From the NCBI GenBank assembly GCA_944342025.1, contig CALVMD010000010.1, forward strand, positions 1 through 61,890: a stretch of 61,890 bases of DNA, in the 5' to 3' direction. Origin of the DNA: an uncultured Clostridia bacterium. Lineage in GTDB: Bacteria; Bacillota; Clostridia; Christensenellales; Borkfalkiaceae. This document shows, one piece after another, positions 2,345 to 12,296 of the stretch (position 1 is its first letter; the number at the start of each line of letters is the position of its first letter). The position numbers were made by a program, and so were the translations under genes. The notes under the pieces were generated by a model. The model did not search any database. It saw nothing but the letters and a program-made list of their open reading frames with translations, and was not told where the DNA came from.

Positions 2345-3016
2345 TCAGCCATTCAGGATCTGTTTCTTTTTGGCGGCAAATTCTTCTTCCGTCAGAACGC
2401 CGTCGCGACACAGCTTGCCGTAACCTTCCAACAGTTCGAGGCGCTCCTTCTCTGTATCGCATGCGCAAAGATCGCGGCGTTTCTTTTCGGCCTCTGTGAT
2501 CGTGTCGAAAGCAGCCTTCCCGTCGGGAACTGCACCGCTTTCGCACAAAGCCTTATCGGGAACAGATCTTTTGCAGATACAAAACGCCGTAAACAGCACT
2601 GCCCCGAAAATGAAAGGCAGATACGCGTATGTAGTACAAAAAACATCATGATTTGCTTTCGTGATGCAGGCGTAGGCTATGCCGACAGCCGCATATACAG
2701 TTTGAGCCGCAAAAACGGCAATCGCCATGCCCGTCTGCGCACGCGCCGCCTTCGGAGAAAACACCGCACATACGCCGATGATCATCGCCGCAATGCCAAG
2801 CAGATATTGCAAAATGCAGTATATCCCCAGCAGGATAACGCCTGCCCCGCCTTGCGGAAAAAAGGTACTTTTCATCGACATAAGATCGAAACCGTTTTCA
2901 ACGACGACCGCTATCGAAACAGCTCCGCCAAGCGGGGCAATAAGCCCGGCAAAGGTTACGCCGCCCAAGTAAAACAACAGCAAGCCGCACATAAGATTCC
3001 GAACGGATACCTTCAT
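2345..3016 (-). CDS. Four-helix membrane protein with C-terminal SHOCT domain
   Basis: A 223-residue protein with four hydrophobic segments in the first 150 residues and a C-terminal SHOCT domain (about 193-223: short helix, DGVLTEEEF, then KKKQIL), a short motif common at protein ends in bacteria. No enzymatic role is known. It resembles the partial protein at 1-295. The ATG at 3016 is preceded by a run of ten G that serves as the ribosome binding site, so its translation may vary with tract length. Location in the membrane is a prediction from hydrophobicity. Confidence 0.75.
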   Translation of the reverse strand: MKVSVRNLMCGLLLFYLGGVTFAGLIAPLGGAVSIAVVVENGFDLMSMKSTFFPQGGAGVILLGIYCILQYLLGIAAMIIGVCAVFSPKAARAQTGMAIAVFAAQTVYAAVGIAYACITKANHDVFCTTYAYLPFIFGAVLFTAFCICKRSVPDKALCESGAVPDGKAAFDTITEAEKKRRDLCACDTEKERLELLEGYGKLCRDGVLTEEEFAAKKKQILNG

Positions 3017-3019
3017 AAT

Positions 3020-3029
3020 CCCCCCCCCC
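3020..3029 (-). repeat. G10 homopolymer at the ribosome binding site
   Basis: Ten consecutive C on the plus strand (G10 on the coding strand) sit 3 nt upstream of ATG 3016. A second ATG 22 nt upstream is out of frame at ten G but in frame at nine or twelve. Confidence 0.9.
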
Positions 3030-7997: not shown

Positions 7998-10730
7998 TTA
8001 CTGTGATTCTTTTTTCTTCCCTGCGCGGGCGGCGCTCACCGCCCATATGGCGGCAGCGGCGAGAAACGCCGCCCCTCCCGCGGCGGAAAGGACGCAGCCC
8101 GCCGTCAGCCACGGCGTTTTGTATTCGAGCAAAATCTCGTGTCCGCCTTCGGGCAGGGCGACCGCCATAAACCCGATATTGGCGCGGATGAGTTCCTCCT
8201 TTTCCCCGTCGACGTAAGCCGACCAGCCTTTACTGTACGGGAGAGAGAAAAACATCCAGCCCGCCTCTTCCAGAGCGACGCTGCCCGATACGAAATCGTC
8301 GCCCCATTCGACGTTTTCCAGGTGCGGGCGCGCCTGCAGCGCCTCGGCGGCGCGCATCGTCCGGGCGGCGTCGTGCCCCAAAAATTCGGCGCGGTCAAAG
8401 GAAATGCCGCCGCCCGAAAGGAGAGAGAGCGTGACGGTCAGCTCGTCGGCATCGGAAACGCCCAGGCACACGCAGGCGTCGCGAACGTCTCTGTACATAT
8501 TGGAGCCGCGCGGCGTAAAGCGATAGGTGCGCGTTTTGCCGTTGCCCGACACGGAAAATTCGGTGTTTTCGTCCACTTCCGCCGCGCCCGAAAGGCGCAC
8601 ATAGATCTCTTTGCCCGCGCAACCTTTCAGCGCGATGCGCACCGTTTCTCCCCGCGAGAGGGAAAAGCCTTCCGCTTCGCCCGAAGAAAAGGACGCGTCC
8701 AGCGGGACCAGTGCGCCCGCATCCGCGCTCTTTTCAGAGCCTTCCCCTTCCACTGCCATCGCCGAGAGCATGGCGTACTGGCGGGACAGCGGGTCCAAGG
8801 AATCCAGATAGCGGCGGGACACCGTGTTTTCATACACGAACCCGAAGGGAACGTAATATTCGTATTCGTACAGATCGCTGAATCCGGCAACGGGCGAAAA
8901 GCCGTAACCCGCGTCGCCGTAATAATAGCGCACGGAAAGCAGGCTTTGCAGGGCGGGGCGGTCGTCCAGCCCGCTCATGCCGAGATTGCCGGGCGGAGAG
9001 TAGATCTGATTTTGAACGGAGAACGCATAAGGCTCTTCGGCATTCATGGAATTGTAGAGCGAAGTGCTCATATACCCGTTGTTGACGCCCCTGTTGCTGA
9101 AACCGCTCCACCACGTATCCGCGGCGCCGTCGTCTGTGCGGAAAAACTCCGTCCGGTTCTGTTCGGAAACATACGCCTCTTCGGCGGAAAACAGGGAGCG
9201 GTAGAGCGCCGCGCCCGTATGCTGCGCCGAATAACCGATATAAAAGTACAGCGCGAGAAGGAGCGCGAGGGGCACGGAAAGTGCCTGCAGCACGTTCGGC
9301 TTTGCCAGCGCCCGCACCACGCGGTTATCGAGGATCTTCGGCGGGACCGCTCCGTCCGCAGTTTTTTTGTCCGCAAAAAACGAATGTTTCGGAGAAAAGG
9401 CGAACCATTCCGCCGCCGCGACGGCGGCAAGGGCGATCAGAATAAGCGCGATGAGCACGCCCTTCGCCCAAGCGGGCAGGCCGCTCTCTGCGCACGTTCT
9501 GACGCCGAAGGCACAGCCGAGCAGTGCGAGGATGCCCAGATAAACGCACATCGCTTTGACGATCCTCCGCCGTTCGGGCACAGAATACTCCCGATCTCCC
9601 CGCTCTTCCGATTGCAGGGCGAGCAGGGAAAAAACGCAGAACGACAGGATATAGACCCAGCGGTTATTGCTGTAATTAAAAATATTCATCGCCCAGCCGA
9701 ACAGCGGAACGACAAACCCGACGGCGAAAACGGCGGTCACGGTGCGGTAAGCGAACGTCTTTTTTGACGGGAAGAGAAACGCCGCCATGCAGAGGATGAG
9801 CGAGGCAAGGTTGAGCATGAGCGGGCTGTAATTGGGCGCGCTGACGGGCGCGATGAAGGAGACCAGCTCCATCAGGAGCGTTTTCAGGTCGAAAAAGTCC
9901 AGCCCCTTCGAGCCGCCTCGCGCCGCGTGCAGGTACGCATACGCGTTGGGGAGGAGCATAAAGCCCGCAAGAAAGATCGCGATCAGATAAAAGACGGCAA
10001 CGCGCCACAGCGAGGGCACCAGCGTCTTAAAATACTTTTTCCCCTCCGCGCGGCACGCCTCGCCGTGATACGCGAACGCGTACAGGACGACGAACACGGA
10101 GTTGAAAAAGAACATGTAAAAGGAATTGACAAGGCATAAAAAGGAAAAACCGATCAGAACGAAGGGATTTTGCCTGCGGTAAGCCATTTCCAGCCCCATT
10201 GCCATGAGAGGGAGATAGATCGCGCCCGAAGTCAGGTTCAGATGCCGCGCAAAGGTGAACACGACGTAGCCGCACAGCATGTATAAGAGCGAACAGGCGA
10301 CGGCATAGCCGCCTTTGACCTTGCGGAAACGCAGGTAGGCGAGCATCGCCGCGCCCGCCGCAAAAAATTTTAAAACGATGACGATGTCGTATACCCACAC
10401 GACGTCGAACGGAAGAATAAAGACGAATACGTTGAACGGGTCGAACAGGGACATGAAACTCATGGCGGTGAGAAAATCCATGCCCAGCCCCAGCTGAAAA
10501 TCGTAACTGCCGACCGCCCTGAACCAGCCGACTTCGCGCAGGTAGGCAAAAAAGGTCAGGTGCTGGGTCGCGCCGTCCGCCTCCCGCACCGCCCAGATCA
10601 GGTGATTGCCGCGGACGATAAAGGGCAGAAGAAGGATAAACAGCGCAACGGCTGCGGCCGCAAAAAAGCGCAGCCACAGCCCGATCCCCTTGCGGGAGTT
10701 CATATTCAATAAAAGAGCATCCGCGCGCAC
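7998..10730 (-). CDS. YfhO family membrane protein (GT-C type sugar transferase candidate)
   Basis: A 910-residue protein with about a dozen membrane helices in the first two thirds, a large extracytoplasmic domain and a final C-terminal helix. The first outer loop holds READGATQHL, at the place of the acidic catalytic residues in GT-C enzymes. In Bacillus and Listeria, YfhO-type proteins move a lipid-linked sugar onto lipoteichoic acid outside the cell, after a CsbB-type GT2 and a GtrA flippase; both partners are encoded directly upstream. The acceptor here is unknown. I chose GTG 10730 because GGGGAGGG stands 8 nt upstream and the preceding stop codon (10734) is only a few bases away, implying translational coupling; ATG 10703 is an alternative. 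Confidence 0.88.
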   Translation of the reverse strand: MRADALLLNMNSRKGIGLWLRFFAAAAVALFILLLPFIVRGNHLIWAVREADGATQHLTFFAYLREVGWFRAVGSYDFQLGLGMDFLTAMSFMSLFDPFNVFVFILPFDVVWVYDIVIVLKFFAAGAAMLAYLRFRKVKGGYAVACSLLYMLCGYVVFTFARHLNLTSGAIYLPLMAMGLEMAYRRQNPFVLIGFSFLCLVNSFYMFFFNSVFVVLYAFAYHGEACRAEGKKYFKTLVPSLWRVAVFYLIAIFLAGFMLLPNAYAYLHAARGGSKGLDFFDLKTLLMELVSFIAPVSAPNYSPLMLNLASLILCMAAFLFPSKKTFAYRTVTAVFAVGFVVPLFGWAMNIFNYSNNRWVYILSFCVFSLLALQSEERGDREYSVPERRRIVKAMCVYLGILALLGCAFGVRTCAESGLPAWAKGVLIALILIALAAVAAAEWFAFSPKHSFFADKKTADGAVPPKILDNRVVRALAKPNVLQALSVPLALLLALYFYIGYSAQHTGAALYRSLFSAEEAYVSEQNRTEFFRTDDGAADTWWSGFSNRGVNNGYMSTSLYNSMNAEEPYAFSVQNQIYSPPGNLGMSGLDDRPALQSLLSVRYYYGDAGYGFSPVAGFSDLYEYEYYVPFGFVYENTVSRRYLDSLDPLSRQYAMLSAMAVEGEGSEKSADAGALVPLDASFSSGEAEGFSLSRGETVRIALKGCAGKEIYVRLSGAAEVDENTEFSVSGNGKTRTYRFTPRGSNMYRDVRDACVCLGVSDADELTVTLSLLSGGGISFDRAEFLGHDAARTMRAAEALQARPHLENVEWGDDFVSGSVALEEAGWMFFSLPYSKGWSAYVDGEKEELIRANIGFMAVALPEGGHEILLEYKTPWLTAGCVLSAAGGAAFLAAAAIWAVSAARAGKKKESQ

Positions 10731-10733
10731 GGC

Positions 10734-11696
10734 TCAGCCCTCCCCGCCGTCTTGCCCGGATAAGGGAGACGTCGCTTCCGTTTCGCGCTCGATATACAGT
10801 GCCCTGCCCCGCACCTGCAAAAAGATCTTTTTGACGTATTCGCCCAAAACGAATATACCGAAAAAGAGGGCCGCCGCCGTGAAGAACAGGACGGGCAGCA
10901 GGATCAACAGGGCGGAGACCGGCCTGCCGAGAGCGGCAAGCACGACGTCGGCGACGGCAAAGCCGAACGCCGCGAGGAAAAACAGCACCGCAAAAGCGAG
11001 GTTGATCTTCAAAAGGGCGGGCGTGGCGCTCTCGATGCCGTCGACGGCGTATTTTGTCAGCTTTTTAAAGCTCCACTTCGTCTTGCCGCCCGCGCGCTCG
11101 ATGTTTTCGTATTCCAGCCATTTGGTCTTGAACCCGACCCAGCTGAACAATTCTTTGCTGAACCGCTCCCGCTCGGGCAGGGACAGGATGGCGTCCGTCA
11201 TGCGGCGGGTCATCATGCGGAAATCGCGCGCGCCGTCCATGATGGGCGTGTCCGTCATCTTGTTGATGATCTTATAGAACAGTCGCGCGAACGCGCTGCG
11301 TATTTTGGGCTCGTTACGCCGCGTAACGCGGCGGCTGGCAACGCAATCGTACCCCCCCACCGACAAGAGGCCCGCGAGCATTTCCGGCAGCAAATCGGGC
11401 GGATCCTGAAGGTCTGCGTCCATCAGGGAGACATAGTCTCCCGTCGCGTGGCGAAGGCCGGCGTAAATGCCCGCCTCTTTGCCGAAGTTGCGGGAAAACG
11501 ACACGTAGCGCACCCGCCTGTCTTTGGCGGCAAGCGCGCGCAGGATGGAGAGGGTGCCGTCCGTGCTGCCGTCGTCCACGAAGACGAATTCCGTTTCGAC
11601 GGGCATGCGGGAGACGACTTCCCGCGTCTTTTCATAAAAGAGAGGGATGCACTCCTCTTCGTTATAGCAGGGAACGACGATGCTGAGTTTTTTCAT
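10734..11696 (-). CDS. GT2 glycosyltransferase, CsbB/DPM1-like (own start inside a longer open frame)
   Basis: Starting at ATG 11696, with a strong AAGGAG site 5 nt upstream, this gives a 320-residue enzyme. It has the GT-A motifs KLSIVVPCYNEEE at the N-terminus, VDDGSTDGT, and LMDADLQDPPDLLPEML, then two C-terminal membrane helices (about 230-300), the CsbB/YkcC/dolichol-phosphate-sugar-synthase plan. It should load a sugar onto undecaprenyl phosphate on the cytoplasmic face, feeding the GtrA flippase and YfhO. The same frame continues upstream without a stop through a poly-G tract into gtrA. So it can be made as a separate protein from its own site or as the C-terminal half of a fusion. Confidence 0.88.
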   Translation of the reverse strand: MKKLSIVVPCYNEEECIPLFYEKTREVVSRMPVETEFVFVDDGSTDGTLSILRALAAKDRRVRYVSFSRNFGKEAGIYAGLRHATGDYVSLMDADLQDPPDLLPEMLAGLLSVGGYDCVASRRVTRRNEPKIRSAFARLFYKIINKMTDTPIMDGARDFRMMTRRMTDAILSLPERERFSKELFSWVGFKTKWLEYENIERAGGKTKWSFKKLTKYAVDGIESATPALLKINLAFAVLFFLAAFGFAVADVVLAALGRPVSALLILLPVLFFTAAALFFGIFVLGEYVKKIFLQVRGRALYIERETEATSPLSGQDGGEG

Positions 11697-12296
11697 GAGT
11701 GCTCCTTCTTTTGCAAACGCGCTAGAGGCAAAGGCGGCAACCGCCGTTTCTCTCCCTCGGGAAAACTCCTCTTTGTCTAAGGACCCCCCCCCCCCCCCCC
11801 CCGCTTGTGCGGAAGGAGCGGCTTTTTTCTGCCTGAACAGCAAAAGGCGCTTGGAGACGTAATTGTAGATCATGACGACGATGGTCAGGACGATCTTGAC
11901 GATCCACTCGTCGATGCCGAGAAGGTCGTACCCGACGTACATGCCGACGAGGTGAATGGCAAGCCCCGCGGCGGAGAGCACCGTAAACAGCGCAAAGCCG
12001 TACACGCCCCTGCTCTTGCCCTTGTGCGTAAAGACGAACAGGACGGAACAGACGTAGTTGATGACAAGTCCCACGAGAAATCCCGCGCCCGTGCCCACGA
12101 CGGTGGCGAGCGTAGAGGGTTCTCCCCCGCCGTACCACACGTTGTAAAAGTGCGGATACAGCGACGCGTCGAACAGGTACAGCACGACGCCCATGGCGAG
12201 CATGTCCGCGACCGTGGCGATGCCGCCGACGATCAGAAAGCGCACGATCTCCATAAAGAGCGGATATTTTTCGTTGAGTTTTTTCAGAAAGTTCAT
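10734..12296 (-). CDS. GtrA-like flippase fused in frame to GT2 glycosyltransferase
   Basis: From ATG 12296 (GAGGG, 8 nt) the frame runs 520 residues. Residues 1-165 are a GtrA family protein: four membrane helices, IVRFLIVGGIATVADM at the start and a typical basic end (VSKRLLLFRQKK), thought to flip lipid-linked sugars. Six Gly codons (166-171) from a 19-base G run and a 29-residue linker follow, then the GT2 enzyme from residue 201. GtrA proteins normally end near residue 150-160, so the join looks accidental or switchable. Loss of one G gives TAG at 11777; gain of one gives TAG at 11722. Both ends at the join are predicted cytoplasmic, so a fusion is topologically possible. Confidence 0.8.
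   Translation of the reverse strand: MNFLKKLNEKYPLFMEIVRFLIVGGIATVADMLAMGVVLYLFDASLYPHFYNVWYGGGEPSTLATVVGTGAGFLVGLVINYVCSVLFVFTHKGKSRGVYGFALFTVLSAAGLAIHLVGMYVGYDLLGIDEWIVKIVLTIVVMIYNYVSKRLLLFRQKKAAPSAQAGGGGGGSLDKEEFSRGRETAVAAFASSAFAKEGALMKKLSIVVPCYNEEECIPLFYEKTREVVSRMPVETEFVFVDDGSTDGTLSILRALAAKDRRVRYVSFSRNFGKEAGIYAGLRHATGDYVSLMDADLQDPPDLLPEMLAGLLSVGGYDCVASRRVTRRNEPKIRSAFARLFYKIINKMTDTPIMDGARDFRMMTRRMTDAILSLPERERFSKELFSWVGFKTKWLEYENIERAGGKTKWSFKKLTKYAVDGIESATPALLKINLAFAVLFFLAAFGFAVADVVLAALGRPVSALLILLPVLFFTAAALFFGIFVLGEYVKKIFLQVRGRALYIERETEATSPLSGQDGGEG
11784..11802 (-). repeat. G19 homopolymer at the gtrA/GT2 junction
   Basis: Nineteen consecutive C on the plus strand, G on the coding strand, inside the open frame. 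Of the three frames reachable by slippage, only the present one joins the two genes. Confidence 0.9.

Follow-up and report, generated by a model that had tools for sequence, protein, structure and literature searches.

A 19-G Tract Between gtrA and a Glycosyltransferase Gene in an Uncultured Clostridia Bacterium: A Candidate Slippage Switch Between Fused and Split Proteins

The Locus and Its Genes

The window, that is, the whole stretch of 61,890 nucleotides that was analyzed, comes from the assembly of an uncultured Clostridia bacterium (GCA_944342025.1, contig CALVMD010000010.1; family Borkfalkiaceae) that, judging from its kin, would live in a gut. The features that concern us here are the following:

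11811..12296, minus strand: gtrA module (GtrA_DPMS_TM), residues 1-162 of the open frame, C55-P-sugar flippase family (Pfam PF04138, E 7e-14; orthologs)
11784..11802, minus strand: G19 tract, six glycines in the assembled frame (sequence, open frame)
11697..11783, minus strand: rest of the linker in the fused frame, 29 residues, containing the stops of both other frames (11779-11777, 11724-11722)
11702..11707, minus strand: ribosome-binding site of GT2, AAGGAG (sequence)
10734..11696, minus strand: GT2, GtrB/CsbB-type polyprenyl-phosphate glycosyltransferase, from ATG 11696 to stop 10734 (Pfam PF00535, E 3e-33; PDB 5ekp, E 7e-58)
7998..10730, minus strand: yfhO, GT-C-type transferase, third component of the operon (Pfam PF09586, E 1e-90; ORF)

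The GT2 part matches the structures of sll0501 (5ekp, E 7e-58), a protein called GtrB. The locus thus holds all parts of a three-component system, namely, a GtrA-family protein, a polyprenyl-phosphate GT2, and a YfhO-type GT-C (PF04138, PF00535, PF09586; 5ekp), and the assignment of these genes in an earlier note on this DNA is confirmed by the Pfam matches and by 5ekp.

Reading Frames Across the Tract

Read directly, the minus strand carries exactly 19 G from 11802 to 11784. As assembled, one open frame of 520 residues (12296-10737) starts at the ATG at 12296, runs through gtrA, the six glycines, the 29-residue linker, and GT2, and ends at the stop at 10734. On the 3' side of the tract the three frames remain open for 349, 1, and 19 codons, so that the gain or loss of one G alters the product, as it does at a contingency locus. 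One G less leads to a TAG at 11779-11777, leaving a gap of 80 nt to the GT2 ATG (11696); one G more leads to a TAG at 11724-11722 and a gap of 25 nt. Whatever the phase, GT2 retains its AAGGAG and ATG. The tract lies close to the 3' end of gtrA and one frame joins the next gene, which is the arrangement of fusion-type (C-terminal) phase variation.

The earlier note had placed a G19 run joining gtrA and GT2 at 11784..11802, with stops at 11777 (one G less) and 11722 (one G more), gaps of 80 and 25 nt before a GT2 with its own AAGGAG and ATG 11696, and three states in all (fused, split by 80 nt, split by 25 nt). The exact sequence, the 520-residue frame, and the frames 3' of the tract agree with each of these points.

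An AlphaFold model of the fusion was built from 45 aligned sequences (mean pLDDT 79.6, pTM 0.63). It predicts GtrA helices until residue 153, with middling confidence for the GtrA part, a stretch of pLDDT <50 at residues 153-181, and a confident GT2 domain from about residue 200; by this model, the tract sits in a disordered linker between two folded modules. Both the GtrA and the GT2 modules are complete in any phase; no phase therefore keeps either protein from being made, and the effect of a length change may be small. ON/OFF switching of GtrA or GT2 is not favored for the same reason.

Rarity and Reliability of the Tract

The G19 tract is the sole G/C run of at least 14 in the assembly (1,574,352 bases, 25 contigs, 77.9% complete). 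When the decay of run lengths within the window is extrapolated, fewer than 1e-6 runs of at least 19 are expected per genome (8e-7 or 5e-8, depending on the length at which the decay is started), which places this homopolymer well past chance length, as one would expect of a contingency locus. Given its length, the tract very probably changes length by replication slippage. Runs of 10, on the other hand, are near chance, with 0.3-0.8 expected per genome from composition alone, and the assembly has just one other G/C run of at least 10, at 3020-3029.

This second run, a G10, lies directly 5' of the ATG of a 223-residue protein (2348-3016), behind ATGAAAAAA. The protein has a weak SHOCT match below the cut-off, and the G10 could be a ribosome-binding site or a slipping leader. 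As to a loss of mismatch repair as the possible cause of the tract, MutS_II gave no match in the 77.9% complete assembly and is present in 33 of the 40 genus genomes, including all 14 of those that are at least 90% complete.

The flanks of the tract are syntenic with relatives, which makes a chimeric join unlikely. With the contig ends also distant, a pure artefact is unlikely; the exact tract length is less certain. An error in the assembled length, such that the true G run has another length, gtrA and GT2 are related otherwise than as assembled, and no switch is implied, we consider unlikely as well. Homopolymer lengths are unsure in draft assemblies, two long G runs adjoin N gaps in a genome of the same genus (G032), and across the order many runs sit at the end of a contig; the present tract, however, lies within a 61.9-kb contig with no adjacent N, in an assembly with just two runs of at least 10, and its flanks and linker length match those of relatives. 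Viral contigs searched with the exact tract flank gave zero matches.

Fused and Split Junctions in Relatives

A gtrA match was found in 19 of the 40 genus genomes, and the junctions were read at the 15 strong matches, leaving out the weak ones (G017, G024, G025, G061). GT2 lies directly 3' of gtrA in 10 of these 15 loci, the window's genome (G000) included. In six of the 10, the genes are fused in frame (G000, G006, G009, G014, G021, G028); the other four are split by gaps of 17-35 nt (G008, G012, G031, G033), and in G033 a match spans both modules with a TAA between them. Fused and split states are both viable. They interleave on the gtrA tree, in which well-supported forks are few, and repeated change of the boundary is therefore probable.

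Fusion is confined to this genus in the genomes covered. Across 32 family gtrA loci, GT2 is directly 3' in 22, with 6 fused and 16 split; beyond the genus, 12 further family members have the two genes adjacent but split, often with an overlap of a few bases. Among 251 family genomes taken from a larger set, six gave a match covering both modules in one frame, all of them members of the window's genus, and in a profile test on the 80 matches listed from named genomes, only one, L067, again of the window's genus, was fused. A widespread GtrA-GT2 fusion architecture was therefore rejected, being seen outside the genus neither in the 251 family genomes nor in the 80 listed loci. One apparent fusion elsewhere (L350) was also rejected, as two frames merely overlap there.

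In three of the fused relatives (L019, L022, and L023, in G028, G014, and G006), gtrA is 77-82% identical to that of the window, and the fused GT2 only 36-38%; judging from these identities, the GT2 fusion partner may have been exchanged.

The earlier note had proposed to look for a G run at related gtrA/GT2 junctions as a sign of a switch. This was not borne out: none of the nine other genus junctions has a G/C run longer than 5, and none of the 21 other family junctions read has a tract (longest G/C run 5). Conservation of the tract at the same place in orthologs, as might be sought for a contingency locus, is accordingly rejected for these 9 genus and 21 family junctions. Nor is the tract what made the fusion, given that at five of these nine genus junctions the genes are fused in its absence.

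These junctions bear on two alternatives. The first is a neutral microsatellite: slippage lengthened a G-rich stretch whose surrounding linker is tolerant of length and frame, the fused and split states function alike, selection is blind to the tract, and its length may vary. The linker fits this, being disordered in the model and 25 to 52 residues long among the six fused forms, as do the lack of a tract at other junctions and the relatives fixed for either state. We regard this as possible though doubtful, and the evidence against it comes from tracts elsewhere, described below. The second is an expression switch through translational coupling, in which enough GT2 would be made only in the fused or the 25-nt phase and the 80-nt phase would be low. 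The 80-nt gap of the phase with one G less does exceed the 17-35 nt of the four split genus relatives, but the AAGGAG and ATG of GT2 stay intact in all phases, and we consider this explanation very improbable.

Tracts in the Same Operon of Other Species

The 32 family gtrA loci comprise those of 31 relatives and that of the window. The order gtrA-GT2-yfhO was found at eight of them, a count that may miss distant yfhO copies because the window's protein was the sole query for yfhO and several stretches end at a contig end. Two of these eight complete operons besides the window, in G006 and G467, have a run of at least 10; none was seen in the part counted of the remaining 24 gtrA loci.

In G006, a G10 lies within yfhO at residue 227. 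The frame is kept, there are two more residues at this point than in six orthologs, and Pfam YfhO covers residues 25-885 of the protein's 895. In G467, which belongs to another genus, the sequence TTGACA-TA-G10-TGCGTGC-TATCAT, with a spacer of 19, lies about 70 nt 5' of gtrA; a TATAAT further on would give a spacer of 29.

At each species' own rate, the seven other complete operons should together hold 0.095 tracts, and 2 were seen (Poisson P 0.004, computed post hoc). This excess should be taken as suggestive only, as runs of 10 are near chance length and the count was made post hoc. Both tracts nonetheless speak against the neutral microsatellite: a shift in the G006 tract would cut YfhO, and the G467 tract is in a promoter spacer.

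Poly-G Promoter Spacers Across the Lineage

The pattern H-G10 occurs 107 times, in 30 of the 40 genus genomes, and is present in 139 of 251 family genomes; runs of at least 14 are found in 38 of 297 order genomes, some of them at contig ends or beside N. The genomes used as controls are drafts. By an approximate count, with a crude gene finder whose codon scores were trained on the window, 81 of the 107 genus tracts have no overlying gene.

In 15 of the 107, the G strand has a TTGACA-like box before and a TATAAT-like box after the tract, as in a promoter spacer, with a spacer of 17-20 in 14 of these; for comparison, the C strand gave 2 of 107, and random positions gave 837 of 200,000. The 15 include three promoter calls that may be false (L160, L191, L233), since a predicted gene covers the tract there. 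In the family, TTGACA-N7-G10 with one mismatch allowed has 41 sites in 24 of 151 genomes, and the reversed pattern has 4. Such promoter-spacer tracts suggest that poly-G tracts are used in the lineage, which again tells against a purely neutral origin for the G19.

A suitably oriented gene follows 13 of the 15 promoter-type tracts, and 12 of the 13 proteins were scanned with Pfam (L160 was left out). The matches include GH123, alpha-L-arabinofuranosidase, GH116, a weak rhamnosidase, a BspA-repeat lipoprotein, two ABC transporters, a flavodoxin, and a GHKL-domain protein, and three proteins have no Pfam family. Twelve genus loci with G10-G11 between TTGACA-like and TATAAT-like boxes, mostly with spacers of 17-20 (L149, L150, L153, L154, L156, L159, L179, L200, L213, L222, L226, L230), are, from their sequence, candidate phase-variable promoters before glycoside hydrolases, lipoproteins, and transporters.

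Several single cases should be recorded here. The proteins behind the G10 spacers of L149 (G012) and L156 (G006), of 607 and 612 residues, look similar by eye, have signal-peptide-like starts, and match no Pfam family. The intergenic flanks of a G11 (L169, G030) and a G10 (L185, G032) are alike in two species, and the tract at this site may be conserved with differing length. In another family member (G424), an A-rich stretch is followed by a TTGACA directly abutting at least 17 G in seven copies (L321-L327), six of them at a contig end, as though the assembly breaks in the tract; in the interior copy a TACAAT follows. Several long G runs are clustered within about 130 bases in order members (L266, L291, G316:C26:1788-1911), some at contig ends. 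Caution is needed with some long G runs in drafts, which may be artefacts: in G032 a G24 and a G17 (L186, L187) abut N gaps.

A Candidate Switch Between Fused and Split Proteins

We put at about 0.5 the probability that the G19 is a real tract, probably hypermutable, that toggles between a fused and a split flippase-transferase. With slippage, translation would have three outcomes, one fused and two split. A single GtrA-GT2 protein would be made in one of the three phases; in the other two, GtrA would stop shortly past the tract, and GT2, which has a ribosome-binding site of its own, would start 80 or 25 nt on. What changes would be whether the flippase and synthase of GtrA/GT2/YfhO surface glycosylation are physically joined, and perhaps in what ratio they are made, rather than whether they are present.

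Several observations argue for such a toggle: a tract length far past chance, its position in a stretch of pLDDT <50 between two folded modules, a genus in which both states are fixed (six fused and four split, of 10) and interleaved on the gtrA tree, and the resemblance of the 25-nt gap with one G more to the 17-35 nt of the four split relatives. The excess of promoter-spacer tracts in the lineage (15/107 vs. 2/107; 41 vs. 4 sites), the G10 in the yfhO of G006 and in the gtrA promoter spacer of G467, and published precedents of fusion-type phase variation point the same way. Against it stand the lack of a tract at any of the 9 other genus or 21 family junctions, the post hoc count of operon tracts, and runs of 10 being near the expectation from composition. 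The phase-variable switch proposed in the earlier note is thus made likelier by the poly-G promoter spacers of the lineage and the operon tracts of G006 and G467, and less likely by the nine tract-less junctions, five of them fused anyway; as an ON/OFF switch it does not stand.

The tract would fit a lineage-wide habit of poly-G in promoters and genes, of which this operon may be a repeated target. A wider proposal, which we hold tentatively and rate below even odds, is that across the family poly-G contingency has recurred in the gtrA-GT2-yfhO surface glycosylation operon, with tracts of separate origin in a promoter (G467), in yfhO (G006), and in the gtrA-GT2 linker (the window). In the window's species slippage would then alter flippase-transferase coupling and not presence, and mixed fused and split cells would differ in surface sugar output.

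If true, slippage would here switch the fusion of two proteins that belong to a surface glycosylation machine, the sister species would be natural fixed controls for both states, and poly-G phase variation would be indicated as a habit of an uncultured Clostridia family. It also becomes testable whether it matters that a C55-P-sugar flippase and its synthase are physically joined.

Comparison With Known Systems

This kind of switch is already known; so far as the literature was searched, what is new is the pair of genes involved, the lineage, and the existence of relatives fixed for either state. That search, with most subscription journals outside it, returned nothing on slippage-toggled fusion in surface glycosylation or on poly-G phase variation as a family habit in uncultured Clostridia.

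A GtrA flippase, a C55-P-sugar synthase (CsbB-GtrB), and a GT-C YfhO make up multi-component transmembrane glycosylation (PMC8035078, PMC7389260). The same three components are adjacent on one strand here; in those accounts flippase and GT2 are separate proteins, whereas at 19 G they are fused. The gtr glycosylation genes of Salmonella are phase-variable too, but epigenetically, through OxyR and Dam at the promoter and with no repeat tract (PMC2909390). An intragenic G tract is also known from the pili of Bifidobacterium breve, a gut commensal; there the tract slips, and the system is ON/OFF and was measured by deep sequencing (PMC9187656). The poly-G promoter spacers of the lineage resemble the fetA spacer of Neisseria (PMC5320596).

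The closest likeness is to homopolymers near the 3' end of a gene that set the downstream gene apart or fused. In Helicobacter canadensis, such a tract decides between two proteins and one at HCAN_0660/0661, a case termed "perhaps unprecedented" in its report, which gives read-level ranges of tract length (PMC2823697); the window's tract, in contrast, is known from one assembled length. A later case is NGK_1211/1212 of N. gonorrhoeae, with pglB2 of N. meningitidis cited as another (PMC5320596). The latter acts in glycosylation and is followed by a gene for a glycosyltransferase, which recalls gtrA-GT2 (PMC5320596). Compared with the Helicobacter and Neisseria cases, the present locus involves other genes in another phylum, and both states are also fixed in sister species that have no tract.
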